DNA from: a virus
DNA: 23,362 bases
Direction: 5' to 3' (one strand)
Virus record (IMG/VR): IMGVR_UViG_3300031772_001573
Span: 1 to 23,362 of that record
The position numbers were made by a program, and so were the translations under genes. Below, piece by piece: positions 517 to 20,682 of this stretch. The notes under the pieces are model-generated. The model was given only the letters and a program-made list of their open reading frames with translations. It ran no database searches and was not told where the DNA came from. Numbering within the stretch: position 1 is the stretch's first letter; each line of letters begins with the position of its first letter.

Positions 517-2112
517 GTGCGGTTGCTGGGGCTGGAAATCACCCGGGCACCGCGGGCCGCCGTCCAAAAGGCAATGGAACCGGCGGACCAGCGCAGTTGG
601 TTCCGTATCTTTGAATCATTCGCGGGCGCGTGGCAGCAAAACGTGGTGGTGGACCGTGATACGGTGCTGTCATATTCCGCCGTCTTTGCTTGCACCACCC
701 TGATTGCCCAGGACATTGGAAAACTGCGCGTCAAGTTGATGCAGCAAAATGCGGCCGGCTTGTGGACGGAAACCACCAGCCCGGCATTCAGTCCGCTATT
801 GCGGAAGCCTAACCATTTCCAGAACCGCATCAAATTCCTAGAGCAATGGATTGCGAGCAAGTTGATGCACGGCAACGCGTATGTGCTCAAGGCGCGGGAC
901 TCGCGCGGCGTGGTGGTTGCCATGTACGTGCTGGACCCGACGCGCGTGCTGCCCCTGGTGTCGGATGACGGCAGCGTGTTCTATGAATTGAAAACGGACC
1001 GGCTGGCCAGCCTGGAAACCCAAGTGGTGGTGCCGGCGCGGGAAATTATCCATGACCCCATGGTGCCGTTGTTCCACCCGCTGGTGGGCGTCACGCCGAT
1101 TTATGCGTGCGGCATTGCCGCCATGCAGGGTGTGAATATCCAGCGCAATTCCAGTGCGTTTTTCGCCAATCAATCGCAGCCGGGCGGCATTCTGACGGCG
1201 CCGGGGTCCATTTCGGACGCCACCGCGGCCAGGTTGAAAACGCACTGGGAGGAAAATTTTACCGGCGAGAATGCCGGCCGCGTGGCGGTGGTGGGGGACG
1301 GGCTCAAATATGAACGCCTCACCGTCAATGCCGTGGACGCGCAATTGATTGACCAACTGAAATTTTCCGCCGAAACGGTGTGCAGCACGTTCCACGTGCC
1401 CCCGTACATGATCGGGGTGGGCCCGATGCCCGCATATAACAATATCGAAGCGTTGAACCAACAGTATTACAGCCAGTGCCTACAATCCCTGATTGAATCC
1501 CTGGAACTGTCTTTGGATGAAGGGTTGGGGCTGGTGGCCGCGTCCGGGTCCTATGGCACGGAGTTGGATTTGGACGGGCTGTTGCGCATGGACACAGCCA
1601 CGCGGTTTAAGTCTCACTCTGACGCAATCGCGGGCGGGTGGCTGGCGCCCAATGAGGCGCGGCGCAAGGAAGATTTCGCACCGGTCAAGGGTGGCGAAAC
1701 CCCCTACCTGCAACAGCAGAATTACAGCCTGGCAGCCCTGGCGGCGCGCGACGTGAAAGCGCAAACCGAAGGGGCGGACGTGCAAACATCCGTGATGAAT
1801 GGAGGCCAGGTGTCCGCACTACAGGCTTTGTTGACGGCGGTGGCGTCCGGGCAATTGCCCGCGGAGTCCGGCAAGGCGGCCATTGCGGCCGCCTTTCCGG
1901 CACTCAGTACCGCGGAAATTGACACCATGGTGGACCCGCTGGAGGAATTCGAACCGGACGCACCGGACCCCCCCACGGGCCCGCCGGGCGGGCCCCCGGT
2001 TGATCCGGCCGCGGACCCCGCGGCACAGGACCCGGAGGACGCGGCGGACCTGGCGGACCTGGCCAAGCACTTGGGCGCAGCCCTGGACGCGCGCCGAATG
2101 AGGGCAGCATGA
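517..2112 (+). CDS. Portal protein, HK97 family
   Basis: A 531-residue protein starting at GTG 517, with a GGAGG site at about 504-508. It forms the dodecameric ring at the capsid vertex through which DNA is packaged and ejected. Recognisable family segments are SYSAVFACTTLIAQDIGKL near residue 50, FLEQWIASKLMHGNAYV near 108, the HPLVGVTPIYACG segment near 190, SSAFFANQSQPGGILTAPG near 210, and KFSAETVCSTFHVPPYMIG near 285. These match the Phage_portal (PF04860) pattern. The last ~100 residues are an extension rich in Asp, Pro, Ala and Gly (DPLEEFEPDAPDPP and onward) that is probably disordered and lies outside the core domain. Its stop overlaps the next start (ATGATG), giving coupling. Confidence 0.93.
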   Translation: MRLLGLEITRAPRAAVQKAMEPADQRSWFRIFESFAGAWQQNVVVDRDTVLSYSAVFACTTLIAQDIGKLRVKLMQQNAAGLWTETTSPAFSPLLRKPNHFQNRIKFLEQWIASKLMHGNAYVLKARDSRGVVVAMYVLDPTRVLPLVSDDGSVFYELKTDRLASLETQVVVPAREIIHDPMVPLFHPLVGVTPIYACGIAAMQGVNIQRNSSAFFANQSQPGGILTAPGSISDATAARLKTHWEENFTGENAGRVAVVGDGLKYERLTVNAVDAQLIDQLKFSAETVCSTFHVPPYMIGVGPMPAYNNIEALNQQYYSQCLQSLIESLELSLDEGLGLVAASGSYGTELDLDGLLRMDTATRFKSHSDAIAGGWLAPNEARRKEDFAPVKGGETPYLQQQNYSLAALAARDVKAQTEGADVQTSVMNGGQVSALQALLTAVASGQLPAESGKAAIAAAFPALSTAEIDTMVDPLEEFEPDAPDPPTGPPGGPPVDPAADPAAQDPEDAADLADLAKHLGAALDARRMRAA

Positions 2113-2753
2113 TGCGCAAAACGGACGTGCCGGAATTTGCCGGGAGCCTGGCGGACGCTGTGGACGGGCTGGTGCAGTCCAGCATTGCGGAGGCACTGGC
2201 GCCGCTGGTGCGGCAACTGGACCAACTGGCGGGCGTGGCCGCGGTCCTGGAGCGTGCTGTGGCCGGGGTCACCAATGGGCAGGACGGTGCGCCGGGCGCC
2301 CCGGGCCAGCCCGGCCGGGATGGGTTGCCCGGGCGGGACGGGTTGCCCGGCAAGGATGGCGCGGACGGCGCCCCGGGCGCGGACGGGTTGGGCTTTGATG
2401 ACTTGGCGGTGGCTTATGACGGCGAGCGCACCTTGACGTTGCGTTTTGCACGGGGCGAGCACATGCGGGAATTCCCGGTCCGGCTGCCGGTGCCCCTGTA
2501 TCGCGGAATTTTCAAAGCCGGGGACCCTTACGAATCGGGCGACATGGTGACCAGCGGCGGGTCCGTGTGGCTGGCACTCAAGGATGCACCGGAGGGGCGG
2601 CCGGATGAACGGGCCACGGACTGGCGCCTGATTGTGAAACGCGGGCGCGACGGGCGCGACGGGCAGCCGGGCGTGAAGGGTGACCCAGGCCCGGAGGGGC
2701 GGCCCGGGCGTGACCTGACGGTGTTGGCGCCGGACGGGGGTAAATTCCGGTGA
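2109..2753 (+). CDS. Collagen-like protein with two Gly-X-Y segments
   Basis: A 214-residue protein beginning at ATG 2109 (a second ATG follows at 2112), overlapping the portal stop. Residues 1-55 are mainly helical and hydrophobic at heptad spacing, which would suit a trimerising stalk. Residues 57-95 are a Gly-X-Y run with glycine every third residue (GAPGAPGQPGRDGLPGRDG type). Residues about 125-178 form a compact aromatic module (YRGIFKAGDPYESGD, then VWLALKDAPEG, then DWRLIVKRG) similar to the small carbohydrate-binding-like modules seen in many phage fibre proteins. A second Gly-X-Y run covers about residues 179-202. Such proteins are usually virion fibres or decorations. The position between portal and connector is unexpected for a tail fibre, so a head or neck appendage is possible. 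The function is inferred. Confidence 0.75.
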   Translation: MMRKTDVPEFAGSLADAVDGLVQSSIAEALAPLVRQLDQLAGVAAVLERAVAGVTNGQDGAPGAPGQPGRDGLPGRDGLPGKDGADGAPGADGLGFDDLAVAYDGERTLTLRFARGEHMREFPVRLPVPLYRGIFKAGDPYESGDMVTSGGSVWLALKDAPEGRPDERATDWRLIVKRGRDGRDGQPGVKGDPGPEGRPGRDLTVLAPDGGKFR

Positions 2754-3088
2754 CCATGCTAGTGACACTGGACCAGGCCAAAGCACAGGTGCGAACGGCG
2801 CACGATGCCGAGGACGAAACCATAACGCTACTGGTGCACGCGGCCAGTGGCGCCGTTATCAATTATTTGAAGGATGCCGCGGAGGAATTCATAGATTCCA
2901 GCGGCGAAGTGGTCACGGACTCCAGCGACATTCCGCAAACCCCCTACGTGGTGCAACAGGCTACGCTGTTGCTGGTGGGACTCATGTTTGCGGACCGTGA
3001 GGGCACGTCGGACCTGTGGAAACCGGGTTACTTGCCGCCGGCCATTGTCGCGTTGCTGTATCCACTGCGGGACCCGGGGCTGGCATGA
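2750..3088 (+). CDS. Head-tail connector, gp6-like
   Basis: A 112-residue protein of the Phage_gp6/TIGR02215 type, which forms the ring directly under the portal after DNA packaging. The family pattern is visible: LVTLDQAKAQVR at the N-terminus, then DEDE-like acidic helix AEDETITLLVHAASGAVINYL, and a C-terminal helix with QQATLLLVGLMFADRE followed by LPPAIVALLYPLRDP. The GTG at 2750 overlaps the previous TGA and is nine bases from a GGGGG ribosome site; ATG 2756 in the same frame is the alternative. The ATGA junction at its end couples it to the following Rossmann protein. Confidence 0.87.
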   Translation: MTMLVTLDQAKAQVRTAHDAEDETITLLVHAASGAVINYLKDAAEEFIDSSGEVVTDSSDIPQTPYVVQQATLLLVGLMFADREGTSDLWKPGYLPPAIVALLYPLRDPGLA

Positions 3089-3738
3089 CCACCCCGTGGA
3101 CCATTCCACGGGACTGGGACGGGGACACGGTGGCCATTCTGGCATCCGGGCCCAGCATGTCCGCGGAAGTGGCGGGCATGGTGCGCGGCCGGTGCCGGGT
3201 GGTGGCAGTCAACAATCAGGGAATCCCAACGGTGCACGCGGTCACCGGGCGGGTGCTGCCGGCATTGGCGCCCTGGGCGGATATGCTCTATGCGTCGGAC
3301 GCCAAGTGGTGGATGCAGTACCAGGCGGACGCACGGAAGTTTGCCGGGGACAAGGTGACGGTGCGCGACGTGCTGCCGTTCCCCGAAGTGCTTTCGCTGC
3401 AACTGTCCACCGCGATTCCCTATGATCCGCGGCCCACCCACGTGGTGACCGGCGGGAATAGTGGTTACCAGGCCACGCACATTGCGGCGCAACGCGGCGC
3501 GCGGCGGATTTTGCTGTGCGGGTTTGACATGCGCCAGGTGCAAGGGTCTAAACATTGGTTTGGCGACCACCCCGGGAAACTCAATTCCCCCCAACGCTAT
3601 ACAACGTGGATCAACAATTTCGCGGAGTTGGGCAAAGCCCTGGCGGCGGTCGGGGTGGAGCTAATCAACTGCACCCCAAAAAGCGCACTGGTCGGACTGC
3701 GGCGCATGACACTGGCGGAGGCTTTGCCCAATGTTTAA
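3085..3738 (+). CDS. DUF115/GT42-like Rossmann protein, probable sugar-transfer enzyme
   Basis: A 217-residue protein starting at ATG 3085 in an ATGA overlap; earlier in-frame ATGs lie within the connector gene and are not preferred. Residues 16-24 (VAILASGPS) carry the GPS loop after the first beta strand, followed by VVAVNNQG and then LAPWADMLYASDAKWW. Around residues 120-142 is VVTGGNSGYQATHIAAQRG followed by RILLCGFDM. This layout matches a family of phage proteins related to DUF115/MptE-like and GT42 sialyltransferase-like folds, often labelled 'norphogenetic protein' in phage genomes. A nucleotide-sugar or nucleotide substrate is suggested by the GPS and SGYQA elements, but no reaction can be assigned. 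It separates connector from adaptor, genes that are normally adjacent, and may work with the downstream transferase block. Confidence 0.7.
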   Translation: MTTPWTIPRDWDGDTVAILASGPSMSAEVAGMVRGRCRVVAVNNQGIPTVHAVTGRVLPALAPWADMLYASDAKWWMQYQADARKFAGDKVTVRDVLPFPEVLSLQLSTAIPYDPRPTHVVTGGNSGYQATHIAAQRGARRILLCGFDMRQVQGSKHWFGDHPGKLNSPQRYTTWINNFAELGKALAAVGVELINCTPKSALVGLRRMTLAEALPNV

Positions 3739-4069
3739 TGCAGGACGATTGCGGCACCGCGTCAACATCCAAAAGCCGGTGCAGGCGCAGGACCCGGACA
3801 CCGGCGAAGTGACCCGCACGTGGTCCACCGTGTTTGCGGACGTGCCCGCGTCCATTGAGCCCATGAGTGTGCGCGAATTTATCGCGGCGCAACAAATGGT
3901 GGCGCAGTGCACCACCATGATTGTGTTTCGCTGGCTGCCGGGGCTCACCCCCACCATGCGGATTGTGCAGGGTGCGACGATATACAACCCCGCCGGATTC
4001 CTGGCGGACAAGGAAAGCGGCGCGGAATACGTGACCGCACCGTGTACCGTGGGAACCAATGAAGGATGA
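3731..4069 (+). CDS. Head-tail adaptor (SPP1 gp16-like, Phage_H_T_join)
   Basis: A 112-residue head closure protein. Family signatures are clear: GRLRHRVNIQKPV at the N-terminus, DTGEVTRTWSTVFADVPASIEPMSVREFIAAQ in the middle, then RWLPGLTPTMRIVQG, IYNPAGFLAD and the ending SGAEYVTAPCTVGTNEG. In SPP1 and HK97-like phages this protein closes the portal channel and provides the surface to which the tail attaches. The ATG at 3731 overlaps the preceding stop by eight bases. Its own stop overlaps the ATG of the first methyltransferase (ATGA), so translation of the modification block is directly linked to this structural gene. Confidence 0.9.
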   Translation: MFNAGRLRHRVNIQKPVQAQDPDTGEVTRTWSTVFADVPASIEPMSVREFIAAQQMVAQCTTMIVFRWLPGLTPTMRIVQGATIYNPAGFLADKESGAEYVTAPCTVGTNEG

Positions 4070-4536
4070 ACCACCGGGAAAGCATGGTGGCGAAAGTGGC
4101 GGCCGCCGGCTGGCGGCGCGGCGCCATGCTCGGGTTGGGGTCCGGCACCCTGTTTGAAATGCTGTTGCGCGGGGTCCCGGACTTGCATTTGATTGGCGTG
4201 GACCATTTCGCGCGGGAGGACCGGCGCGAACGGTTGGCGGAAATTGGCCGGGAGTATGCGGACCGGTGCACGGTGCACCCTTGCACCACCGCCCTGGCGT
4301 CCAATTTCATACCGGACCGCAGCCTGGATTTTATCTATTTGGACGCTGGCCACAAATATGGGTGCGTGCGCTCGGACTTGCGGCTGTGGTGGCCCAAGGT
4401 GCGGGTGGGCGGGTGGTTTGGCGGACATGACTTTGCCCCGAAATATCCCGGCGTTGTCCAGGCGGTTACGGAAAAGTTTGGGCGTGCATTCACGGTGGAC
4501 GCCAACACCGTGTGGCAGGTGGGCAAATCCGCATGA
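4066..4536 (+). CDS. Class I SAM methyltransferase (Methyltransf_24-like)
   Basis: A 156-residue protein starting at ATG 4066. A Rossmann methyltransferase layout is visible: motif I at residues 21-28 (MLGLGSGT), an acidic second strand at about 42-48 (LIGVDHF), and DFIYLDAGHKYGCVRSD at about 88-104, with D93 and H96 in the conserved position of the Methyltransf_24 family. This is followed by WWPKVRVGGWFGGHDF. The substrate is unknown; the family includes enzymes acting on sugars and small molecules. The protein is short for a stand-alone methyltransferase and lacks an obvious N-terminal substrate domain. ATGA overlaps at both ends place it in a tightly coupled run with two further methyltransferases. 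Confidence 0.8.
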   Translation: MNHRESMVAKVAAAGWRRGAMLGLGSGTLFEMLLRGVPDLHLIGVDHFAREDRRERLAEIGREYADRCTVHPCTTALASNFIPDRSLDFIYLDAGHKYGCVRSDLRLWWPKVRVGGWFGGHDFAPKYPGVVQAVTEKFGRAFTVDANTVWQVGKSA

Positions 4537-5195
4537 GCAAATTGGACAAGGTGTTTGCGGGCTATCGCCCCAACTGGGATTGGGCCGGGATGCAGGGCAC
4601 GCGTGCGTGTCTCAAGTGGAACGTGCGCGACCTTTACTCATTGGACCTGGCGTTGCGCCACACCAAAGGACGCAAGGCGGCAATCCAGGCGGGTGGCAAC
4701 CTGGGACTATTCGCCAAACGATTGGCGGAGGAATTCCGCCAGGTGTTCACGTTCGAACCGGACAAGGTGCTATTTGCGCAACTGGAGCACAACGCACCGG
4801 AGGCCAACATTGTGCCGGTGTGCGCGGCGCTGGGGTGCTCGCGGGACCCGGTGCGCATGGAATGTGGACGCCGGGACGATAGCGGGCGCGCAGTCCATGA
4901 GGGGTTGACCTACGTGGCCGGCGCCGGCGACACTCCGCAGATTCTTATTGATGACTTGGAATTGCCGGCACTCAATTTGATTTACCTGGATATTGAAGGG
5001 TACGAATTGAACGCATTACGCGGTGCGGAAAAGACCGTTGCACGCTGCCAGCCCACCATTGCGGTGGAGAGCAACGGCAATGCCCGGCACTACGGCAGCG
5101 ACAAAAAGCAATTGGCCAAGTGGTTCGGGTTGCACAGTTACCGGAAAGTGGTGCGCATTCACGGTGATGACATTTACGTGCCCCTTTCAAAATGA
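4533..5195 (+). CDS. FkbM-family methyltransferase
   Basis: A 220-residue protein; ATG 4533 is chosen because it overlaps the previous TGA and the upstream in-frame codons lie inside the preceding gene. FkbM (Methyltransf_21) features are in order: motif I at residues 50-58 (AIQAGGNLG), the strand-2 acidic loop FEPD at 74-77, EANIVPVCAALG near 90-100, LIDDLELPALNLIYLDIEGYE at about 138-158 with D153 and E155, and LRGAEKTV plus PTIAVE afterwards. FkbM enzymes O-methylate hydroxyls, often on sugars or lipids. Motif I has Gln (Q52) where the common form has Asp, a variant I also associate with phage-borne FkbM proteins. Likely partner of the glycosyltransferases that follow. Confidence 0.87.
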   Translation: MSKLDKVFAGYRPNWDWAGMQGTRACLKWNVRDLYSLDLALRHTKGRKAAIQAGGNLGLFAKRLAEEFRQVFTFEPDKVLFAQLEHNAPEANIVPVCAALGCSRDPVRMECGRRDDSGRAVHEGLTYVAGAGDTPQILIDDLELPALNLIYLDIEGYELNALRGAEKTVARCQPTIAVESNGNARHYGSDKKQLAKWFGLHSYRKVVRIHGDDIYVPLSK

Positions 5196-5908
5196 AAACA
5201 GCCGCGGACTATTCGGAAATTTTCCTGGCGGAGTGCACACGCAGCTATGCGGAAGTCACTGCGCTGGAGGCATCCTGCGGCTATGCGGTCAACCGCGCCA
5301 AGCTGGAGGCGGCCGCGCGCGTGCTGGCGTGCCCGCACAAAGTCAACCCGCCCAACTGGCAGCACGGGCGGGTCATCTATGCGCTGGCACGTGAGTTGAT
5401 CGCGGAGAGCACCGGGGCGGGCGTGTTCCTGGACATAGGCACAGCCAAAGGATTCTCCGCGGTGGTGCTGTCCTGGGCAGTGTCGGACGGCATGGTGCAC
5501 CGGCGCATAGTGTCCGTGGACGCGGTGGACCCGCTGGCGCGCGTGCCCCGCAACAGTGTGGCGGAGGCGGACGGCGCGTTGTGGACGGTGCCGGAATACG
5601 TTTCCAGGTTTGCGGCCCCGGGCGCCCCCATTGAATTCCGCGGCGGTGGCTCGGATGCGTTGCTGCGGGAGTGCGTGGCGAACGGCACCCGGGTGCGGTT
5701 TGCGTTTGTGGACGGCAAGCACAGCGAAACGGCAGTGGCGGCGGACGCGGCACACCTGGCGCAATTGCAGCGGGCCGGGGACCTGTGCGTGTTTGACGAT
5801 TTGCAAATAGACGGGGTGCGGGCCGCGTTAGCCAGGGTCAAAGCCTATTCATTCACCATTGTGAATGCGGGGCCCAGCCGGCGCTATGCGGTGGGGGTGC
5901 GGCTGTGA
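5192..5908 (+). CDS. Class I SAM methyltransferase, second Methyltransf_24-like enzyme
   Basis: A 238-residue protein starting at ATG 5192 in an ATGA overlap with the FkbM gene. Motif I is at residues 78-88 (VFLDIGTAKGF), followed by VVLSWA, and the second acidic loop is at about 107-113 (VSVDAVDP). The catalytic-region signature RFAFVDGKHS at about 169-178 has D174 and H177, followed by AVAADAAHLAQLQRAGDLCVFDDLQ. That arrangement is like the 4066 gene but with a longer N-terminal helical region (about 75 residues), so the two are probably distant relatives rather than recent copies. The substrate is unknown. The GTGA junction at the end couples it to the first GT8-like glycosyltransferase. 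Confidence 0.8.
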   Translation: MKTAADYSEIFLAECTRSYAEVTALEASCGYAVNRAKLEAAARVLACPHKVNPPNWQHGRVIYALARELIAESTGAGVFLDIGTAKGFSAVVLSWAVSDGMVHRRIVSVDAVDPLARVPRNSVAEADGALWTVPEYVSRFAAPGAPIEFRGGGSDALLRECVANGTRVRFAFVDGKHSETAVAADAAHLAQLQRAGDLCVFDDLQIDGVRAALARVKAYSFTIVNAGPSRRYAVGVRL

Positions 5909-6555
5909 CATTGACAGTGCTGTGCGTGTGGGTGGCCGGGCACGTGCCATTCACCCCGGACTATGTGGTGCGGTTGCGCAGCATGGCGCGGCGCGCGTTG
6001 CCGCCACACCGGTTTGTGTGCCTGACGGACCACCCGGAGCGGTTGCCCGCGGACCTGGAAACCCGCCCCGCCCGGGTGCCGCCGGGGTGCAAAGGGTGGT
6101 GGGCAAAGGTGCAGCTATTTGACCCCACGTTGACGGTGGCCGGGCGGTTGCTTTACCTGGACCTGGACACCCTGGTGGTGGATGACTTGACCCCGCTGGT
6201 GGAGTATCCGGCGGAGTTTGCATTGGCCCCGGACGGCGCCCCCAATTTCCGGCCGCGCGACGGCACGGCATGTGTTCACCGTTTCAATTCCAGTGCCATG
6301 GTGTGGGATCACGGCAGCCAGGCGCACTTGTTCCGGCAGTGGGTGCCCGGCGTGGCCCGCCGGCTGTGGGGGGATCAAGACTGGATAGGGGAACAGTGCC
6401 CCGGCGCCGCGGTCATGCCGGCCGCATGGTTTCCGCGGATCAGTGACGCCCCGGGCCCGGCGTGGCCGCCGGGCGCGCGTGTCATCCTGTGCAAGAAACC
6501 CAAGAATGCGGAGGCGGCCCGGCGCTGGCATTGGGTCGCGGAGGCGTGGCAGTAA
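5905..6555 (+). CDS. GT8-like glycosyltransferase A
   Basis: A 216-residue protein starting at GTG 5905, overlapping the previous TGA. It has the layout of a retaining GT-A enzyme: a short first strand (LTVLCVWVAG), YVVRLRSMARR, HRFVCLTDHPERL, GWWAKVQLF, and a metal-binding DXD motif at D86-L87-D88 within LLYLDLDTLVV. Then come FNSSAMVWD, the segment that usually contacts the acceptor, and WGDQDWIGEQ, a late acidic motif typical of GT8-type enzymes. It most likely transfers a sugar from a nucleotide-sugar donor. It is paralogous to the protein at 7312-8043 in all these segments. Acceptor and donor are unknown. Its TAA overlaps the next ATG (TAATG). Confidence 0.8.
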   Translation: MTLTVLCVWVAGHVPFTPDYVVRLRSMARRALPPHRFVCLTDHPERLPADLETRPARVPPGCKGWWAKVQLFDPTLTVAGRLLYLDLDTLVVDDLTPLVEYPAEFALAPDGAPNFRPRDGTACVHRFNSSAMVWDHGSQAHLFRQWVPGVARRLWGDQDWIGEQCPGAAVMPAAWFPRISDAPGPAWPPGARVILCKKPKNAEAARRWHWVAEAWQ

Positions 6556-7319
6556 TGGGGGCCCCGGGCTTTGATGATGCGACCATGGTGTTTCCGAAAG
6601 CCGGGGACCCAAAGCGCATTCAGTTTATATATCCGTACTATGAAAACCCGCAATTCTTTGAACGGCAATTGCACCTGTGGGAATCCTATCCGGAGCACCT
6701 GCGGGCGTTGCTGCGGGTCATCGTGGTGGACGATGGCAGCCCGGACCACCCCGCCGGCGCGGTGGTGCGCGCCCAAACGCAATGCAGTTTCAACCTTGTG
6801 GTCTTTCGGGTGGACGTGGACGTGCGCTGGAATTGGCTGGCGGCGCGCAATATCGGAATGCACCACGCGCACCCTGGCTGGTGCCTGTTGACGGACATGG
6901 ACCACATGGTGCCGGCGGACACGCTCGCGCACCTGGTCATCCGGGCCCACGATCCGGCCGCCATCTATCGGTTGTCCAGGCGCGAGAGCACCGGGGAACT
7001 GATACACCCCCACCCAAATTCCATGCTAATGACGCGGGAAAAGTTTTGGAACGTGGGCGGATATGATGAAGCACTCAGCGGTTTCTATGGCACGGACGGC
7101 GACTGGCGGCGCCGGTGCGCGGCCGCCGGCCAGGTGTGGACGCTGCCGGATGAACTGCGGCGGCATGAATACGCGGGCGACAGCAGCACCCGCAAATATT
7201 TGCGCAAGCAACCGCAGGACGCCGGCAAAAAAAAGGTGCTCCAGGCGCGGCGGTGGGACCGCACCTGGAAACCGCGCGTGCTGTCATTTCCATACCACCA
7301 GGAAATCCCAAGTGCTTGA
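6555..7319 (+). CDS. GT2-like (GT-A) glycosyltransferase
   Basis: A 254-residue protein starting at ATG 6555, inside the TAATG overlap. The N-terminal donor-binding strand IQFIYPYYENPQFF leads to VIVVDDGSPD with D59-D60, the family 2 nucleotide-binding signature. A metal-binding DXD is at D114-M115-D116 in LTDMDHMVP. A late acidic motif GTDGDWRRR (D181, D183) follows after EKFWNVGGYDEALSGFYG, the GT2/galactosyltransferase-like acceptor region. The ~50 C-terminal residues are basic (RKYLRKQ, KKKVLQARRWDR). No membrane segment is present, so it acts in the cytoplasm. An inverting sugar transfer is expected from family knowledge; donor and acceptor are unknown. Confidence 0.82.
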   Translation: MGAPGFDDATMVFPKAGDPKRIQFIYPYYENPQFFERQLHLWESYPEHLRALLRVIVVDDGSPDHPAGAVVRAQTQCSFNLVVFRVDVDVRWNWLAARNIGMHHAHPGWCLLTDMDHMVPADTLAHLVIRAHDPAAIYRLSRRESTGELIHPHPNSMLMTREKFWNVGGYDEALSGFYGTDGDWRRRCAAAGQVWTLPDELRRHEYAGDSSTRKYLRKQPQDAGKKKVLQARRWDRTWKPRVLSFPYHQEIPSA

Positions 7320-8043
7320 CGTGGTGTGCTGGAAATGGAAACCGCCCCCGGGGTATCGGTCCCACTTTGGGCCGGGCACTGTCAATGTTTTGCACAGAAT
7401 GGTGGCCCGGCACCTGGCCATGCCGCACCGGTTTACGTGCATCACGGATGACCCCACCGGCATTGACCCGGCAGTGAGAATAATTCCGCTGTGGAATGAC
7501 TACGCCAACGTGCCCAGTCCGTCCGGGCCGCACAATCCTTCATGCTATCGCAGGCTCAGAATGTTTGCCGCGGACGCGCGGGAATTGATCGGGGAACGGA
7601 TCGTAAGCCTTGACCTGGACACGGTGGTTACCGGTCCGTTGGACCCGTTGTTTGACCGGCCGGATGATTTTGTGATTTGGGGCGGGCAATCGGTCCAGCC
7701 CGGGCGGCCGGCGCCGTGGTGCTGGTATAACGGCAGTTTTATGATGCTGCGGGCCGGCACGCGCACCCAGGTGTGGGACCGGTTCAACCCCGCCACGTCC
7801 CCACGGGAGGCGCACGCGGCGAACGCGCGGGGCTCGGATCAAGGGTGGATCACCCATTGCCTGGGCAAAGGCGAAAGCACCTGGACCGCGGCGGACGGGG
7901 TGTATTCATTCCGCAGCCACATCGTGCCCAACGGGGGCCGGCTGCCGGCCGGTGCGCGGCTGGTGGCATTTCATGGTAAACATGACCCCTGGCTGGAAAC
8001 CACCCGGCGCATGGCGCCGTGGATTGCGGAGCATTATCACTGA
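7312..8043 (+). CDS. GT8-like glycosyltransferase B, paralogue of the 5905-6555 protein
   Basis: The start is set at GTG 7312, eight bases after an AGGA site (about 7300-7303) and overlapping the end of the GT2 gene; GTG 7321 is a less likely alternative. That gives 243 residues. Shared segments with the first GT8-like protein are MPHRFTCITDDPTG, IVSLDLDTVVTGPLDPLF with D101 and D103 as the DXD, WYNGSFMMLRAG, and GSDQGWITHCLG. A conserved AFHGKHDPW near the C-terminus is the His-containing segment usual in GT8-type enzymes. It differs from copy A in the loop between the second strand and DXD and at the C-terminus, suggesting a different acceptor. It is the last gene of the block; its TGA overlaps the gp10 ATG. 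Confidence 0.8.
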   Translation: MLDVVCWKWKPPPGYRSHFGPGTVNVLHRMVARHLAMPHRFTCITDDPTGIDPAVRIIPLWNDYANVPSPSGPHNPSCYRRLRMFAADARELIGERIVSLDLDTVVTGPLDPLFDRPDDFVIWGGQSVQPGRPAPWCWYNGSFMMLRAGTRTQVWDRFNPATSPREAHAANARGSDQGWITHCLGKGESTWTAADGVYSFRSHIVPNGGRLPAGARLVAFHGKHDPWLETTRRMAPWIAEHYH

Positions 8044-8606
8044 TGGCGTGGGCGCATTCTCCCAACGCGGAAATTTCGGTTGCCATGAGTGACACGCGGC
8101 CGATTCTCAATCGGTTGTCCAAACTGTCCGAAGATATGCAGAAAAAGGACGCCAAACGCGCGGCGCGCGTGGCCATGCGCCTGGTGCAACAGGCGGCGCA
8201 ACTGAATGCCGCGGAGTTTGACCGCGGGTGGACGCCCACCAGCGTCAAGAAAAACATCACGGTGGCATGGTCCCCGCGGCAGAGTCGCCAGCAAGGGGGC
8301 GTGGTCATGCGCGTGGGTGTGATGGGGGGCGCGGCGCAGTATGCCCACACCAAAGCAAACGTGCGCAAGGGGCGCGCGGGCAAGACTTACGCGACGGGGG
8401 GCGACAAGGGCAACCCGGGCGGGGATACGTGGTACTGGCGTTTTCTGGAATTCGGCACGTCCAAAATGCGGGCGCAGCCATTCTTGCAACGGGCCCTGGC
8501 GGACAACGTGGACGCGGTAACCACCGTGGCGCTGGGGGACTTGACCAAAACCCTTGACCGGCAATTCCCACCGGCGCCGGCGGCGCCCAGCGGGGGTGCA
8601 CGATGA
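8043..8606 (+). CDS. HK97 gp10-like head-tail/tail completion protein
   Basis: A 187-residue protein from ATG 8043 (TGATG overlap); ATG 8085 is a possible later start. It shows the gp10 (PF04883) pattern: an N-terminal helix KLSEDMQKKDAKRAARVAMRLVQQAAQLNA, a central basic region VKKNITVAW and VVMRVGVMGG, then DTWYWRFLEFGTSKMRAQPFLQRAL, the most conserved part of the family, and a C-terminal helix. Proteins of this family are placed at the neck or tail terminator in HK97-like phages. Its usual immediate neighbour, the head-tail adaptor, is almost 4 kb upstream because of the transferase block. Confidence 0.88.
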   Translation: MAWAHSPNAEISVAMSDTRPILNRLSKLSEDMQKKDAKRAARVAMRLVQQAAQLNAAEFDRGWTPTSVKKNITVAWSPRQSRQQGGVVMRVGVMGGAAQYAHTKANVRKGRAGKTYATGGDKGNPGGDTWYWRFLEFGTSKMRAQPFLQRALADNVDAVTTVALGDLTKTLDRQFPPAPAAPSGGAR

Positions 8607-8980
8607 AACCCCCCATATTTGAGTTGTGCTCCGCGGACACCACCCTGCAAGGGTTGCTGTCCGATGACTTGGGCCGGTTCCAGTTGTATCCGTTCGGGGA
8701 GGCGCCGCAGTTGGGCGCAAAGCCCTATGCGGTGTGGCAACTGGTGGGAGGCGGCCCGGAGAACTACATAAGCAACGTGCCCGACATAGACCAGGTGACG
8801 GTCCTGGTGGACACGTATGCGAAAGAGGCCAGCATGGCGCGGGAAGTGTCCGCGGCACTGGTGGCAGCCATAGAGTCCGTGGCGCACGTGGTGCGGCATA
8901 ATGGCGAATGGCGGGACCCGGAAACGCGCGCATATAGGTGCTCGTTTACCGTGGATTGGTTTGTGGAGCGGACCCAGTAA
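8603..8980 (+). CDS. DUF3168 tail terminator/completion protein
   Basis: A 125-residue protein at ATG 8603 overlapping the gp10 stop (ATGA). The DUF3168 pattern is present: an N-terminal helix with LCSADTTLQGLLSDD, RFQLYPFGEAPQ, PYAVWQLVGGGPENY, DQVTVLVDTYA, a long helix REVSAALVAAIESV, and YRCSFTVDWFV at the end. The family corresponds to lambda gpU-like tail terminators that cap the tail tube and join it to the head. The position between gp10 and tail tube genes is the standard one. Confidence 0.88.
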   Translation: MKPPIFELCSADTTLQGLLSDDLGRFQLYPFGEAPQLGAKPYAVWQLVGGGPENYISNVPDIDQVTVLVDTYAKEASMAREVSAALVAAIESVAHVVRHNGEWRDPETRAYRCSFTVDWFVERTQ

Positions 8981-8998
8981 ACAACGGAGACAGCAGCA

Positions 8999-10157: not shown

Positions 10158-12982
10158 TGGCCGCACGCAGCCTGGGCACACTCACCCTTGATTTGGTCAT
10201 GCGGTTGGGTGGATTCAAACAAGGCGCGGATGCGTCACAACGTGAATTTGACAAAATGGCCCGCGGGCTCAAGTCGCGTGCCAATAGCCTGGCCGGGGAT
10301 TTCAAAACCCTGGGCGCGTCACTGTTGGGCGGGCTGTCCATTGCCGCAGTGATTGCCGCCACGGCGGAGGCGGAAAAAGCGTTTGCCAAACTGGACAACG
10401 CGGTTAAATCCAACGGAGGCGCGGCGGGCCGCACCACGCAGCAATTAGCGGACCTGTCCGGCCAGTTGCAGTCCGTCACCACCTACACCGACGATTCAAT
10501 CCAGGTGGCGGAATCCCTGTTGCTGCGGTTCAAAAGCATACAGGGGGTCAACTTTGACCGCACCGTGGCGTCCGTGCTGGACATTGCCACCGCCATGGAA
10601 ATGGACCTTTCCGGCGCGGCCAAGCTGGTGGGCCGCGCGCTGGAGGACCCGGAAAAGGGCATGGCGCGACTGGCGAAAGCCGGCATATTGTTTTCGGCGG
10701 CCCAAAAGGACGTGATTGCAAACTTGATGGAAACCGGCCAGGTGGCCGCCGCGCAGACGTTCATGCTGGACGCACTGGACGCGACGTTTGGCAACGCGGC
10801 CGAATCGGCACGCAACAATTTCGGCGGCGCACTCATTGGGTTGAAAAACGCATTTGGTGACTTGCTGGAGGCAAAGGGTGGACTCCCGGAAGCCACGCGC
10901 AAGTTGGAGGAATTCAGCAAGCTACTCGCGGACCCGAAAACTAAACAGGCTGCGGACGTTTTCCTGACCACGGTTATAACGGCGCTGGGCAACGTCGCGG
11001 CGGCGCTGGCGCCGGTTATAGAGTTGTTCGCAAAAGGGATCAACGCGGCGGGGGACTTTGGCGCGCGCATTGACCACGCATTGGGCCGGAAATTTGACGA
11101 TGCCACGGAGGAAAGGCTATTCAGCATCAACGCGCAACTTGAGGAATTGCAGGCGCGGCGTGATGCACTGGAGGCCAGCAGCAAGCGCAATTTCCTGGTG
11201 GACAAGGGGCGCATTGCGGAGGAAATCGCAGCCATTGACGCGGAGGCGGAAGCACTGCGGAAATTGCAGGGTGGCCGCACCAGCAAGGGCACCCCGCCGG
11301 GCGGCCGCAACCGCGCGGGGCCCGGCAACGGGTTGCAGGTGGTCACGTCGGATGACCTGACGGCGCGCGACAAAATCCTGGCGGACATCACCACCGCGCA
11401 GGAAAAATACAATGATGCAATGGAGGACGCGGACCGGCTGTTGGTCAAACACATCATCACGCAAAAGGAGTACGACCGATACCAAGCCACCGCCGCGGCG
11501 GAGTTGAATAAAGCCCTGGCCGGCAAGAGTGGCGGCAAATCCGACGCGGCGCGCGAAACGGAACAAGCCACCAAAAAGGTGCAGGACTTCATTGCGCAAC
11601 TGAATCAGCAACGGGAAACACTGGGCATGACCCAGGCGGAGTTGCTGCGCTATTCGGTGGCCACCGGCGACGTGGCCAAAGCACTGGACGCCATGGGCGC
11701 GGCCGCGGCGCCATTCCGCACCGCGTTGCCCGCCATCGTGGACGCAAACATAACCGCCACCGCCACGCAGGCAATTGAGGATCAGATTAAAGCCTTGCAA
11801 GAGCAAGCAATCACCATTGGCATGACGGAGCAACAGGCATTTGCCTACAGTGTCACCCAGGGTGAATTGGCCAAGGTGCTGCGTGAGACTGGATTGAGCC
11901 AGGAGGAATTGACCCGGCGTTTGCTGGAGGGTTACCAGGCCACCGTTGACGCGCAAAAGGCGGCGGACGCGGAAAGGGAACGAGCATCCATTTACGATGC
12001 CACCCGGACCGCGGCGGAAGCCTATGCGCTGGAGTTGGAGCACCTGCAAGAATTATTCGCCAACAGCAGCGACCAGGAAACCTACGGGCGCGCGGTGGCG
12101 GATTCCGTGGAGGACTACATAACGGCCGGCAATGCGGTGACGGAATACCGTTTGAGGCTGGAGGAATTGGCGCGGCTGTTGGCCAGCGGGGACTTATCCC
12201 CGGAAGCCTACAAAGCTGCGGTGGAAGGGGTGGACAGGACGTTTGCGGAGGCTGGCAAAAAGTCTGCCCAGGCATTTTCCGATGAAGCAAAGCGGAACGT
12301 GCAAGGCATCGTGGCGGACTTTTTGGTGGACCCGTTTTCGGAAGGCATTGACGGGTTGGGCCGAAAGTTTGGGGAAATGCTGTTGCAAATGGCGGCGCAA
12401 GCCATTGCCGCGCAGATTGCGGACGCCATATTTTCCGGCTTTGACGATTGGATAAACAAAGCCAAAGAGGCATTGGCCAGCCTGGCGTCCGGTTCCGGCG
12501 GCGGGGCGTTGGGCTGGCTGGGCGGACTCTTGGGTGGCGGCGGGGGCGGGGACCTGGCGCCCATTGAAATCACAGCCCAATACATTCCGGGCTATGCGGC
12601 CGGCGGGTACACCGGGGACGGTCCGGCGTTGCAACCGGCCGGCGTGGTGCACCGCGGGGAGTTTGTGACCAGCGCCGCCAAGGTGCGCCAGCCCGGCGTA
12701 TTAAACCTGTTGCAGCGTATCCAATATGGACCCATGGACACGTTGCGCGCGCTGGAATCGCGGTTGCCGCGGTTTGCGGTCGGCGGACTGGTGGGCGCCG
12801 CGATGCCGGGCGCGGTGCGCGGGCTGGCGGCGGCCACCCCTGGCGGGTCCGCGGGCATTCCGTCCGTGGTGCAAAATTTCAGTATTGCGGCACCGGCCGG
12901 CACCGTGTCACGGTCAACCCAGCAACAGGTTGCGGCGGCGGCCGCACGCGGACTCAGCCAGGCCAGCCGGAGGAATAACTAA
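10157..12982 (+). CDS. Tape measure protein
   Basis: A 941-residue protein starting at ATG 10157 (TAATG overlap with the chaperone fusion). The N-terminal region is helical with VMRLGGFKQGADASQREFDKM, then a hydrophobic helix LLGGLSIAAVIAATAEA (about 55-71), and a block with LATAMEMDL and KLVGRALEDPEKGMARLAKAGI that is shared by many siphophage tape measures. Coiled-coil segments are seen at about 318-375. Two similar units (QRETLGMTQAELLRYSVATG near 484 and QEQAITIGMTEQQAFAYSVT near 547) form an internal repeat. The C-terminal part has a Gly-rich linker, then YAAGGYTGDG and GVVHRGEFVTSAA, typical tape measure end motifs. By the usual ruler relation (about 0.15 nm per residue) the tail would be near 140 nm. 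Confidence 0.92.
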   Translation: MAARSLGTLTLDLVMRLGGFKQGADASQREFDKMARGLKSRANSLAGDFKTLGASLLGGLSIAAVIAATAEAEKAFAKLDNAVKSNGGAAGRTTQQLADLSGQLQSVTTYTDDSIQVAESLLLRFKSIQGVNFDRTVASVLDIATAMEMDLSGAAKLVGRALEDPEKGMARLAKAGILFSAAQKDVIANLMETGQVAAAQTFMLDALDATFGNAAESARNNFGGALIGLKNAFGDLLEAKGGLPEATRKLEEFSKLLADPKTKQAADVFLTTVITALGNVAAALAPVIELFAKGINAAGDFGARIDHALGRKFDDATEERLFSINAQLEELQARRDALEASSKRNFLVDKGRIAEEIAAIDAEAEALRKLQGGRTSKGTPPGGRNRAGPGNGLQVVTSDDLTARDKILADITTAQEKYNDAMEDADRLLVKHIITQKEYDRYQATAAAELNKALAGKSGGKSDAARETEQATKKVQDFIAQLNQQRETLGMTQAELLRYSVATGDVAKALDAMGAAAAPFRTALPAIVDANITATATQAIEDQIKALQEQAITIGMTEQQAFAYSVTQGELAKVLRETGLSQEELTRRLLEGYQATVDAQKAADAERERASIYDATRTAAEAYALELEHLQELFANSSDQETYGRAVADSVEDYITAGNAVTEYRLRLEELARLLASGDLSPEAYKAAVEGVDRTFAEAGKKSAQAFSDEAKRNVQGIVADFLVDPFSEGIDGLGRKFGEMLLQMAAQAIAAQIADAIFSGFDDWINKAKEALASLASGSGGGALGWLGGLLGGGGGGDLAPIEITAQYIPGYAAGGYTGDGPALQPAGVVHRGEFVTSAAKVRQPGVLNLLQRIQYGPMDTLRALESRLPRFAVGGLVGAAMPGAVRGLAAATPGGSAGIPSVVQNFSIAAPAGTVSRSTQQQVAAAAARGLSQASRRNN

Positions 12983-13611
12983 TGTTTCTGGAGTCTCCCC
13001 GGTTTCCGGGCTGTCCGTCTTTTGGCTTTGTGGCGGAGCCCATGTATTCGGTCACGGTGATTGAACGGGCCAGCGGAATTGAAACCCGCAACCGCAATTG
13101 GTCGCGTCCGTTGACACGTTACACCGCAACGGTGGGCCCGCGGGTGCAAGCTGAAATCCAAGAGGCATTGGAGTTTTATCACGCTGTGGGTGGCCGCGCG
13201 TATGGCTTTCGGTTCCGAGACCCGGTGGATTATCTTTCATGCCGCGTCGGGGAAACGCCCAGTGCGTTGGACCAACCCATGATATTGGACGCCACGCAGT
13301 CCCCGGACGCATACCAGTTGTGCAAAGACTACGTGGCCGGCAGCAACAGCCAGCGCCGGGAAATATATAAGCCGGTGCAGGGCACAATCCTGGTGGCGGA
13401 CAATGGCACGCAGAAAACAGAAACCACGCACTATACGGTGGACTACACCACCGGACTGGTGGTGCTAAATTTCACCCCGTCCGGGACTCTCACCTGGGGT
13501 GGTGAATTTGATGTGCCAGTGCGATTTGATTCGGAATTCCCGGTGGAAGTGGCCAACCTTAGAATACAGTCCGCCCAATTCACCTTGCGGGAATTGCGGG
13601 TGGCCAGCTAA
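12982..13611 (+). CDS. DUF2460 distal tail protein (GTA gp12-like)
   Basis: A 209-residue protein from ATG 12982, overlapping the tape measure TAA. Segments known in DUF2460/TIGR02217 are FPGCPSFGFVAEPMYSVTV, NRNWSRPLTRYTATVGPR, LEFYHAVGGRAYGFRFRDPVDYLS, RREIYKPVQGT, and VDYTTGLVVL near residue 150, ending with FDVPVRFDSEFPV and FTLRELR. In gene transfer agents and related phages this protein makes the distal tail ring that joins tube and tip. Its order right after the tape measure and before DUF2163 is conserved. Confidence 0.88.
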   Translation: MFLESPRFPGCPSFGFVAEPMYSVTVIERASGIETRNRNWSRPLTRYTATVGPRVQAEIQEALEFYHAVGGRAYGFRFRDPVDYLSCRVGETPSALDQPMILDATQSPDAYQLCKDYVAGSNSQRREIYKPVQGTILVADNGTQKTETTHYTVDYTTGLVVLNFTPSGTLTWGGEFDVPVRFDSEFPVEVANLRIQSAQFTLRELRVAS

Positions 13612-14522
13612 TGCACACCATTCCGGCGCCACTGCAAGCGCACATTGCGGGTGAAGTCACCAGCCTGACGGTGTGTTGGGCAGTTACGCGGCAGGACGGT
13701 GTAGTGGTGCGCGGCACCCAGTGTGACCGCGACGTGGTAATAACCACCGGCGCCCTGGCCGGGACCTATTTGAGCACGTCCGGCATAACAGCCAGCACCG
13801 TGCGCGCGGGTGGTGACCTGTCGCCGGACAATTCGGAAATTGACGGAGTGCAGGACCCGGACTCATTCATAACCGGATTGACTGCCGCGGACATTGAAGC
13901 GGGGTTGTTTGATGATGCGGCACTAAAGGTGTTTCTGTGCAACTGGGCGGCGCCGGACGGCGGCCAGGTGCAGTTGCCAGGTGCATACCTTGGGAATATC
14001 CGCCGCACCAGTGAGGGCAGATACACCGCGGAAGTGCGCGGGCTCGCGCAACGGTTGACGCAGCCACTTTTGCGCACGTGCTCTGACACGTGCAATGCGG
14101 AGCTTGGGGACGCACGCTGTGGCGTGGACCCGTCGGCATTGATTGTGGCCGCCACCGTGTCCGCGGTCACGTCGCGGCGGTTGTTTACGTGCTCGCTGGC
14201 GGTGGATTCCTCCAGCGGAGTGGCCGGCGATTACATATTTGGCAAGCTGGTGGGGGTCACCGGACTGAATGCCGGTTACACCCGGGAAATTAAACAGGAT
14301 GCCGTCGGCGCGGTGTTTGGTTCCATTGCACTGCATGAACCAATGCCGGCCGCCGTCCAGGTTGGGGACACGTTTGCAATGCACCCGGGATGCAACAAAG
14401 AAAAAGACACGGACTGCAAACTGCGGTTTAACAACGTGCTGCGGTTCCGCGGGTTTGGCGTATTCACCCCGGGCGCCTATAAGATGCTGCGCGGACCGGC
14501 GCGCGGGTCCGGGCCGGTATGA
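13611..14522 (+). CDS. DUF2163 baseplate/tail tip protein (GTA gp13-like)
   Basis: A 303-residue protein at ATG 13611 overlapping the preceding TAA. It shows the DUF2163/TIGR02218 pattern: an N-terminal LQAHIAGEVTSLTVCWAVTRQDG, TGITAS-like TSGITASTVRAGGDLS, a middle AALKVFLCNWAAPDGG, YLGNIRRTSEGRYTAEVRGLAQRL, then a cysteine-rich signature CSDTCNAELGDARCGVD and, at the end, GCNKEKDTDCKLRFNN and LRFRGFG. The cysteines in the last two segments are a hallmark of the family and may bind a metal cluster, as reported for gene transfer agent tips. It forms part of the tail tip with DUF2460, the peptidase and the hub. Confidence 0.9.
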   Translation: MHTIPAPLQAHIAGEVTSLTVCWAVTRQDGVVVRGTQCDRDVVITTGALAGTYLSTSGITASTVRAGGDLSPDNSEIDGVQDPDSFITGLTAADIEAGLFDDAALKVFLCNWAAPDGGQVQLPGAYLGNIRRTSEGRYTAEVRGLAQRLTQPLLRTCSDTCNAELGDARCGVDPSALIVAATVSAVTSRRLFTCSLAVDSSSGVAGDYIFGKLVGVTGLNAGYTREIKQDAVGAVFGSIALHEPMPAAVQVGDTFAMHPGCNKEKDTDCKLRFNNVLRFRGFGVFTPGAYKMLRGPARGSGPV

Positions 14523-14932
14523 CGGTGGACGCCAGTATGGTGGTGACGGAGGCGCGCGGATGGGTGGGGCGTCCATTCTTGCACCAGGGCACCACGTGGG
14601 ATGGGGTGGACTGTGTTGGAATGGTGGTGGGGGTATGTAAAGCGTTGGGCATCGTGGCCCCGGATTTCACTACCGGACCCTATGGGCGCATCCCGGCGCA
14701 CGATATGTTGACCCGCCGCATTGCGGAGCATTGCATGGCAGTCGAACATCCGGGACCTGGCACCCTGGTGGTGCTGCGGTGGACCCGGGAGGCGGCGCAC
14801 GTCGCATTGTGCACCGGGCCCACCCTGATTCATTCCAACGAAAGAATGGGCCGCGTGGTGGAACACGGTTACCGCGGCCGATGGCTGCGCATGACGGCAT
14901 CCACGTGGCAGTTGCCGGGCGTGGTGTACTGA
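14519..14932 (+). CDS. Tail tip NlpC/P60-family peptidase (GTA gp14-like)
   Basis: A 137-residue protein at ATG 14519 in an ATGA overlap. The catalytic cysteine is C32 in DGVDCVGM, the histidine is H94 in EAAHVALC, and a third polar position is likely at H105 in TLIHS. These fit the NlpC/P60 papain-like layout of TIGR02219 proteins from gene transfer agents and siphophages. In those particles the enzyme is part of the tail tip and cuts the peptide part of peptidoglycan during entry. It is distinct from the endolysin candidate at 22310. There is no signal peptide, as expected for a virion component. Confidence 0.9.
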   Translation: MTVDASMVVTEARGWVGRPFLHQGTTWDGVDCVGMVVGVCKALGIVAPDFTTGPYGRIPAHDMLTRRIAEHCMAVEHPGPGTLVVLRWTREAAHVALCTGPTLIHSNERMGRVVEHGYRGRWLRMTASTWQLPGVVY

Positions 14933-17900
14933 ATGTCCACCGGTCAAATTGTCGGCGGGGTTGGCGGCGCAATCATTGGCTTTGTGCTGGGCGGGCCCGC
15001 CGGCGCACTTAAGGGGGCTTACTGGGGATATATGGCGGGGTCCATCGTGGACCCGTTGCCATTGCCCACGGTGCGCGGCCCGCGGCTGGAGGACCTTAAA
15101 GCGCAATCATCCGTGGTGGGCGCCACGTTGCCGTTGGCGTTTGGTACGTATGCAGTCTCCGGCAACGTCATTTGGGCCAGCGATCTAAAGGAAACAAAAC
15201 ACAAAGACACCGCAGGCGGCAAAGGCGGGCCCAGTCAAACGCAGATTTCATACACGTATTCCCAAAGCATGGCCATTGCGCTGGCGGAGTCCGCAACGCC
15301 GGGCACCCGCGCGTTTCAAGGCATCCGCCGAATTTGGGCCAACGGCAAATTGATATACACGCGCAAACGTCCACACCAGGACGTTATAGATGCGGCGCAT
15401 GATCGCAATAACGGAACAGCGATAGGCGAGGCAATCGCGGCAATGCTGGAAGAAATGATGCGCTCGCTGGGCGCGAGCGATTCACTTGAACGAATAATGA
15501 CGGTTTACGATGGCACCCAAACCACTGCGGACCCCGTAATTGAATCGTTCGAAGGGGTGGGGAACGTACCCGCATTCATGGACCTGGGCTATGTGGTCTT
15601 TGAAGATTTACAACTGGCGGACTATGGAAACCGTGCGCCGGAATTTCTTTTCGAAATTTACACCAACGGCACCCCGGAGCATTTGGATTTTGATTCCTAT
15701 GCCAATGATCAATTGTTTCCGTGGCGGTTGGGCGAGCACGATCCTGTCAACTATGGAAATGTGAACGAATACGCGCGAATTGGCGGGGGCGGGCCGGGCG
15801 CATATTCAACACTCGCGGCGTATATCGCGGCAGACAAACCCGGTTATGCGGATTGGGTGTTTGCGTACAAAGTTGAAGGGTTAACCAATGACAACATGCC
15901 GGCATATCCGATGGCGGGCGACCCGTCACCGTATGAGGGGGTGCGCATATTTGTTGCCATCAATTACACGGTGCCGGGAGTTCCCACTGCGGGGGGGACC
16001 CCCAACGGTGGCGTGATAAATGAATCACTAGCGTGGGGTGTGATGTTCACTCCGGGTGCGCCAATCCTGGGCGAAATGATGCCGCCGGATACGCTCAATT
16101 GGTGGTCCGGGTTTGGCGGGCCCACCTCTCAGTCCACCGGGATTTGGTACTACAGCAGCACCGGAAATACCAGCATTGGGGAAGCCGCATTTTTGCCGGT
16201 TACGATTGATTCCGGGTACACGCCATATGCGCCGGCCGCACCCTACTATTTATGGAAGTCGGATGATTTAGTGGAAGTGACGCGCACCCCGGCGCCACCC
16301 ACGGACACCGCCGATGACCCGGCGTATATTGCCATCCCGGACGTGCCGGGCTATTTCATTGACGCAATGGGGCAAACGTGGCGTGGCGCGGTGTGGGCAT
16401 ATGACAATTCCACCACCTATAAGGTGTTGCAAAAATACACCACGTCCGGGCTTAACGTCACAAAATACCCCTTGAGCCCCGCGCGCCCCGTGGGCCACGC
16501 ACAATATTCAGATTCGGCATTCTGGATTGCGGCATATGACGCGGCGGTGGCCGCCGGCGACATGCCGGGCGGGCTAACCTATGGGGTGCACTATCCGGCC
16601 ACGCAGTCTTACGGGTACATAAACGTGGCGCCGGATGACGTGGTAAACGTGTTCCCGGTGCCGGTGGCGGACATTGTAAGTGCACTGTGCGGACGGGCCG
16701 GCTTGACCGCGGGCCAAATTGACGTGACGGACCTGGACAGCATGTGTGACGGGTACGTGGTGGGCAGCAATTCGGACGGACGCGCAGCAATTAACCCCGT
16801 TGCCATGTTTGGATTATTTGGTGCGTTTGAATCCGGCGGGCAACTGGTCTTTGTGGAACGCGGCGCCGCACCACTGGTCACCTTGACGGCGGATGACCTG
16901 TGCGCCCATGAGTCCGAATCGGACCGGCCGCCGGCGGTGGAGGTAACTCGCAAACAGGACGTGGAATTACCGCGCACCATGCGGGTGACCTATGCGAGCC
17001 CGTCGCGCGATTACCAGCAAGGCGAACAATTGGCCGCCAGGATGACCACCCCGGCCATTAACGCAGTGGACGTGCAATTGCCCATTTCCATGTCAGACAG
17101 CACCGCATTGCAGTTAGCGGAAATTTACCTGTTTGACGCATGGACCGCGCGCAACGGGTACGGGTTTGCACTGGATATGTCGCACCTGGCGCGCACCCCC
17201 ACGGACGTGGTGGAGTTGCCCGTGGACGGCAACGTGGAGCGGGTGCGCATTGTGTCCGTGGACGCGGGACTGCCGGGCATCATTGCGTGCCAGGCTATCC
17301 GGGATGACGGGGAAGTGGTGATTTCTTACGCCACGCGCGGGGATGACGCGGCGCTGGAAAATAATCTGCCCACGGACGTGCCACTGGCGGGTCCCACCGA
17401 AGTGATTTTGCTGGACATTCCGGCCATGCGCCCCACGGATAACGACGCAGGATATTATGCGGCGGGTCGCGGGTATCTGCCGGAATGGAACGGATACGCA
17501 ATACTGCAATCATTCAATGGCGGCACTGAATACACCACAATTGCATCATGCGAGGATGCCGCCACCATTGGCACCCTGGTGTCCGCGTTTGAAGGAACCG
17601 CATCCGCAATTGAAGTGGTGGCGGATTCCGGCACCTTTGTGTCCGCCACGTCCGGGGAATTGGACGCCGGCGCCAACGTGCTGGCCATTGGCGCCCATGG
17701 CCGGTGGGAAATCCTGCAATTTATGACGGCAAGCCTGGCCGGCGGGGTGTGGACGTTGGGAGACTTCCGGCGCGGGCTGCGCGGAACGTCCGCCTATGAA
17801 ACAACGTCACTGGACGGGGACCGCGTGGTGTTGATAAGTGGCAAGGGAATTTTGCGTGTGCCCCTGGCGCCGTCACTGGTCAATGTCCCGCACTATGTCA

Positions 17901-20674: not shown

Positions 20675-20682
20675 CAATCGCC

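Follow-up and report, generated by a model that had tools for sequence, protein, structure and literature searches.

Gene content and layout of the neck operon

The window analysed here is a 23,362-base IMG/VR virus record (IMGVR_UViG_3300031772_001573, positions 1 to 23,362), whose neck operon carries a cassette of six intact plus-strand open reading frames (ORFs) at 4066-8043, between the head closure adaptor Hc1 and an HK97 gp10-like tail-completion gene. These encode three methyltransferases (MT1, MT2 and MT3) and three glycosyltransferases (GT1, GT2 and GT3). A sequence-only reading of the same DNA had proposed such a cassette, with two GT8-like enzymes and one GT2-like enzyme among the glycosyltransferases, and the Pfam and PHROG matches, the predicted fold of GT3 and the alignment of GT1 with GT3 all agree with that assignment. 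Hc1 and gp10 were also said to be neighbours normally, and this is the arrangement in five portal relatives that lack the block, where gp10 directly follows Hc1 (contigs L077, L096, L101, L105 and L106).

The genes from portal to the tail-completion protein Tcp (517 to 8980; Table 1) all lie on the plus strand and form an unbroken chain of 12 overlaps, each 1, 4 or 8 bases long. The run of exact stop/start overlaps described earlier for the cassette is present, but the chain reaches beyond the cassette and overlap is therefore a trait of the whole operon; in addition, GT3 starts at a GTG codon at 7312, which gives an 8-base overlap with GT2. The count of six holds for the cassette itself, while a seventh enzyme-like gene at 3085-3738, here labelled ST, belongs to the set as well. 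The cassette edges are unmarked by repeats, as had been noted: searches of the block found no direct repeats at its edges, no tRNA and no Rfam match, and a promoter scan found no sigma-70-like promoter within it. An imperfect 28-nt inverted pair (79%; 4119-4146 and 7992-8019), lying about 25-55 bases inside the cassette ends, is probably a chance occurrence in GC-rich coding DNA. A megablast search of the window against phages returned zero matches.

Table 1. Genes of the overlapping portal-to-Tcp operon in the window.
Gene or product	Position	Strand	Supporting match or observation
Portal protein	517..2112	+	Relatives in at least 570 viral contigs; overlap chain begins here
Collagen-like protein HeadFib (our name)	2109..2753	+	Pfam Collagen 1.5e-9; phrog_1289 2e-24
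Head-tail connector Hct	2750..3088	+	Position after HeadFib kept in relatives
Seventh enzyme-like gene, ST	3085..3738	+	phrog_4603 1.9e-37
Head closure/adaptor Hc1	3731..4069	+	Phage_HCP 5.8e-24; phrog_25 head closure Hc1
MT1, class I methyltransferase (Methyltransf_24)	4066..4536	+	Pfam 2.9e-13
MT2, FkbM-family methyltransferase (Methyltransf_21)	4533..5195	+	PF05050 1.6e-10; PDB 2py6 FkbM 3.8e-10
MT3, Methyltransf_24	5192..5908	+	Pfam 6.2e-9
GT1, GT8-like glycosyltransferase	5905..6555	+	phrog_1962 'glycosyltransferase' 1.6e-16; no Pfam match
GT2, GT-2 family glycosyltransferase	6555..7319	+	Glyco_tranf_2_2/Glycos_transf_2 6.3e-10
GT3, GT8-fold glycosyltransferase	7312..8043	+	PHROG 1962; no Pfam match; GTG start 7312
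HK97 gp10-like tail completion/Neck1	8043..8606	+	PF04883 1e-6; phrog_5 2e-16
Tail-completion protein Tcp	8603..8980	+	Position and conservation in relatives; overlap chain ends here

Families and catalytic residues of the cassette enzymes

The cassette proteins resemble saccharide enzymes, namely FkbM (PDB 2py6), heparosan synthase, Skp1 galactosyltransferase and the glycogenin/LgtC group. GT3 was modelled with AlphaFold2 (pLDDT 91.8), and Foldseek matches the model to LgtC (6e-9) and glycogenin, both of which are GT8 enzymes with the GT-A fold, so that the GT8-like label given to GT3 is correct. LgtC is a lipooligosaccharide galactosyltransferase. GT1 matches the Skp1 galactosyltransferase (PDB 6mw5, 8.6e-4), a cytoplasmic protein-glycan enzyme, and GT1 and GT3 are homologous paralogues (hhalign 99.9%) with GT2 lying between them. 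Many relatives place GT3 before MT2 instead, and the duplicate thus shifts within the block. GT2 matches heparosan synthase B (1.1e-7), and its relatives in phage records are confined to Tetraselmis viridis viruses and one marine single-cell virus.

Family alignments of MT2, MT3, GT1, GT2 and GT3 (all of the cassette enzymes but MT1) show that the catalytic motifs are intact. The DxD aspartates are invariant in all three glycosyltransferase families (D86/D88 in GT1, D114/D116 in GT2, and D101/D103 of the DLD motif in GT3), as is the motif around D153/E155/G156 of MT2 in an alignment of 19 sequences. The Methyltransf_21 domain of MT2 scores 41.8 bits against a curated cut-off of 22.7, which places it within the FkbM family. 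In the MT3 family, D81, G83, T84, A85, K86 and G87 are invariant together with D174, G175 and H177. MT3 weakly matches rhamnosyl-O-methyltransferase/CmcI (0.0013) and has zero matches in 50,697 phage records, while a genome scan returned only relatives at about 25%, in Pelagibacteraceae, Chloroflexi and Marinimicrobia. The distant relative in Marinimicrobia (L121) adjoins GT4, GT2 and methyltransferase genes, and the one in Pelagibacteraceae (L118) adjoins a sugar-epimerase-type gene.

Methylated or glycosylated bases made for anti-restriction would be another use for such enzymes. MT1 matches phrog_2675, which is named DNA methyltransferase, and phage glycosyltransferases can modify DNA according to a reference cited in one paper (PMC12619734). 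Against this, a scan of MT1-3 for [DNS]PP[YFW], the DPPY/NPPY motif IV, gave zero matches (the cytosine-C5 PC motif lay outside that scan), the methyltransferases belong to sugar-type families, no base-hypermodification genes were seen in the window, and the genes sit in a late structural operon. Modification of DNA or nucleotides, which the sequence-only reading had also disfavoured, is therefore very improbable.

The enzyme-like gene ahead of the adaptor

The ST gene accompanies the cassette in relatives and is therefore counted as its seventh member. Its PHROG (phrog_4603) is named alpha-2,3-sialyltransferase, and a trace of the MptE-like family PF01973 falls below cut-off. The AlphaFold2 model of the protein is confident (pLDDT 90), but a fold search of the PDB gave nothing at E<=0.001, with a best TM of about 0.3, and the GT42 sialyltransferase fold was not recovered. 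A sialyltransferase identity, for which the PHROG annotation is the sole basis, is not supported by these results.

This lack of a significant fold match also bears on whether the enzymes, or some of them and the ST protein in particular, act chiefly in morphogenesis or as structural factors, catalysis playing a lesser part. Homologues of ST are annotated 'structural protein' in phage PAJU2 and as morphogenetic proteins in P1/P7 (PmgP, HdmB), which fits a role in assembly. The cassette enzymes, however, retain invariant catalytic residues, and phage relatives manage without the block, so that we regard a mainly structural role as unlikely.

Recurrence and selection across viral contigs

Viral contigs were scanned with MT2, GT3 and portal, and with alignments of GT2 and GT3. 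In IMG/VR contigs, tblastn confirmed relatives of GT2 in 169 candidate stretches and of GT3 in 515, and 113 non-redundant contigs carry a relative of one or the other. A virion gene lies within 6 kb of the enzymes in 97/113 of these, and in 97/97 all of these nearby virion genes share the strand of the enzymes. Where virion genes are recognised on both sides, all of the enzymes fall between them (39/39 contigs). Linkage to structural genes, a feature of the Corndogvirus system too, is thus conserved. MT2, MT3, GT1, GT2 and GT3 are all present in 33 contigs, the order MT2-MT3-GT1-GT2 is kept in 32, and the commonest junction among 405 gene pairs, with starts chosen automatically, is a four-base overlap. 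The set accordingly recurs among virion genes, but the specific placement between adaptor and gp10 that had been proposed is not the usual one: Hc1 follows the block in 75 contigs, precedes it, as in the window, in only 11, and lies inside it in 3. The adaptor/gp10 site is therefore one local form of an arrangement that spans the neck.

Between contigs L006 and L007, dN/dS is 0.03-0.12 for the enzymes, 0.07 for gp10 and 0.03 for Tcp, with dS near 1. The cassette genes are not decaying and are under purifying selection similar to that on neck genes. An isolated, decaying insertion in one phage, the outcome that the earlier reading had named as fatal to its proposal, is ruled out by intact genes, purifying selection and virion linkage in many independent phages. 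A neutral passenger might draw on the frequent change of cassette state on the portal tree, described below; the dN/dS values and the recurring gene order already contradict it, and it can hardly be credited.

Two further features of the window lie downstream of the neck. The tail genes at 12982-18067 run in the order DUF2460-DUF2163-NlpC-large protein, names that are presumptive and our own reading of the ORFs; this order, reminiscent of gene transfer agent tails, recurs in many cassette-bearing contigs. At 18979-21498, three consecutive glycine-rich proteins resemble tandem paralogues (18979-19845, within 19613-20674, and 20683-21498). Two of them, the first and the third, hit PHROG profiles named 'tail fiber assembly', and the three are possibly Gly-rich adhesins.

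Variation of the neck interval

The same interval is a hotspot for sugar-related genes and holds other enzymes in other phages. Pairs of Methyltransf_23 proteins occupy it in L062, a Methyltransf_24 protein with a nucleotide-sugar transferase in L072, LicD with weak pyruvyl- and nucleotide-sugar-transferase matches in L082, and GT9 with hexapeptide proteins in L079; GT9 is the heptosyltransferase family. In L027, a B12-binding radical SAM protein lies inside the neck cassette (7565-8989), and proteins of this class could methylate or rearrange sugars. Directly 3' of portal, where the window has the collagen-like gene, its closest portal relatives (L033 7472-9676, L034 3487-5655, L035 6273-11602) instead carry a protein with VNVNVPE repeats and large unknown proteins with common C-terminal sequences; these post-portal genes are a further decoration insert within the interval.

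On the portal tree, the cassette label switches at least 8-10 times, in a clustered manner, and the block therefore comes and goes. The 'none' label is uncertain for two contigs: L035, because of the structural repeat insertion directly after portal, and L099, which has a GT4-like gene further down.

It is conceivable, and we put it forward only tentatively, that virion-glycan cassettes have a dedicated slot, in which one can be exchanged for another, in the post-portal/neck interval of a broad uncultivated siphophage group. The product of the commonest full set, whose MT3 family is unmatched in isolated phages, would be a multiply methylated oligosaccharide attached to a protein of the neck or head surface, and coat sugars would vary by cassette swapping, much as bacteria swap O-antigen loci.

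Proposed function and candidate acceptors

The block is probably a virion-glycosylation module that decorates the particle with a methylated oligosaccharide. We consider this the best explanation because of the linkage to virion genes, the conservation of the cassette and the precedent of Corndogvirus, whose comparable block is reported to attach glycans to the capsid and the tail tube (PMC11600133, PMC12363180, both citing Freeman 2023).

We infer that the enzymes are catalytically active and expressed late, with a virion protein as acceptor and a benefit to the phage. They would be made late in infection, alongside portal, neck and tail proteins. In the cytoplasm, the soluble glycosyltransferases, two of GT8 type and one of GT2, would draw on nucleotide sugars of the host and assemble a short chain on a structural protein; as many as three methyltransferases, one FkbM and two Methyltransf_24, may cap the sugars of this chain or tune them. 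Released particles would then display a methylated oligosaccharide on their surface, which could alter how they adsorb, how sticky they are, or how other cells or defences recognise them.

Several results weigh against decoration of the particle. Among the sequences examined, no acceptor or acceptor motif was found, and the window has no recognised nucleotide-sugar synthesis genes. The major capsid protein (MCP) and the major tail protein (MTP) have no Ser/Thr-rich C-terminal extension tied to the cassette. Among relatives, the post-portal protein has anywhere between 0 and 88 Gly-X-Y triplets in its collagen-like stretch, with a median of 21 where the cassette is present vs 5 where it is absent (p 6e-5), but this association is not significant in phylogenetically independent pairs. 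HeadFib of the window has 13 such triplets with zero Ser/Thr, and Ser/Thr make up about 2.6% of the collagen stretch in relatives. GT8 enzymes such as LgtC, moreover, act on lipooligosaccharide too.

Two candidate acceptors were rejected. A collagen stalk carrying O-glycans on Ser/Thr, like BclA, does not fit repeats that are nearly devoid of these residues, and no Ser/Thr C-terminal tails were seen on MCP or MTP. The C-terminal domain of HeadFib is common to other phage head or tail proteins.

The main rival is late modification of a host surface glycan (the lipopolysaccharide or lipooligosaccharide core, or capsule), by which progeny would avoid re-adsorbing to the dying cell or its debris and competitors would be excluded. 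The best fold match of GT3 is LgtC, the distant MT3 relatives in bacteria adjoin glycosyltransferase or epimerase genes, and LicD, GT9 and the weak pyruvyl-transferase match in alternative cassettes of the same slot are typical of surface polysaccharide. The cassette proteins, by contrast, have no predicted membrane helix (19-residue hydropathy at most 1.33), and no flippase, polyprenyl-linked enzyme or membrane-bound glucosyltransferase family was found in the cassette, unlike gtrABC-type serotype conversion. The enzymes are also persistently embedded among virion genes, and the Corndogvirus analogue is reported to act on virion proteins. Since no acceptor was identified from sequence and LgtC acts on lipooligosaccharide, host-surface modification stays a contender, although a rather improbable one. 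The earlier proposal of particle decoration is thus partly supported, by virion linkage and precedent, with the particle a more probable site of the glycan than the host surface.

If particle decoration is correct, methylated glycans on the virion would be widespread among environmental phages and encoded at a predictable position. The chemistry of the coat would then be heritable and swappable, could be read from gene order, and would affect adsorption, particle survival and antibody recognition.

Comparison with known systems

To our knowledge, experimental work on phage virion glycosylation comes mainly from mycobacteriophages. The Corndogvirus block was compared through the cluster O relatives Firecracker and Catdawg, in both of which gp33-36, immediately following portal within the structural operon, are an overlapping O-methyltransferase and three glycosyltransferases. 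The O-methyltransferase belongs to Methyltransf_24, the Pfam family of MT1 and MT3, and Firecracker gp35 appears to be distantly related to GT2 of the window (E 2e-6 at probability 89 by hhalign; profile E 4e-6). GT3 and Firecracker gp36 have no similarity. The Corndogvirus block differs in lying between portal and protease rather than in the neck and in having one methyltransferase instead of three; family and profile comparison found no ST-type gene, FkbM or GT8 enzyme in it. Its GT25-like and phrog_4447 glycosyltransferases are of families other than those in the window, and the two blocks therefore look like independent assemblies of one idea. Che8 is a further phage with a virion-glycosylation system; in Maravista, which like Che8 belongs to cluster F1, glycosyltransferases lie near the 3' end, so that linkage to structural genes is no requirement (PMC11256854).

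The earlier suggestion that no such gene set was known in this position is not supported, given the Corndogvirus block after portal and two further systems. The Pseudomonas phages D3 and PAJU2 carry a methyltransferase between Hc1 and gp10 (Hc1, orf12/ORF011, methyltransferase orf13/ORF012, gp10) with an ST-like gene nearby; they differ in that the methyltransferase is Methyltransf_23 rather than Methyltransf_24 or FkbM, the function of orf12 is unassigned, and no GT8 or GT2 enzyme was recognised. In Tetraselmis viridis virus S20/SI1, two ST relatives stand in a single run with relatives of GT2, MT2 and GT3, ahead of Hc1, gp10 and the tail genes. This cassette, of eight genes in S20, has no MT3 and no separate GT1 that we recognised, and includes an extra GT-D-fold enzyme. 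Further afield, viral glycosyltransferases and sugar O-methyltransferases make methylated virion glycans in PBCV-1 (A064R/A061L) and mimivirus (R132) (PMC9614988), which are eukaryotic viruses with clusters of unrelated position and lineage. Virion glycosylation by phage-encoded enzymes is thus already known; what is new is the combination of enzymes, their location in the neck, their wide spread among uncultivated phages and the family to which MT3 belongs.

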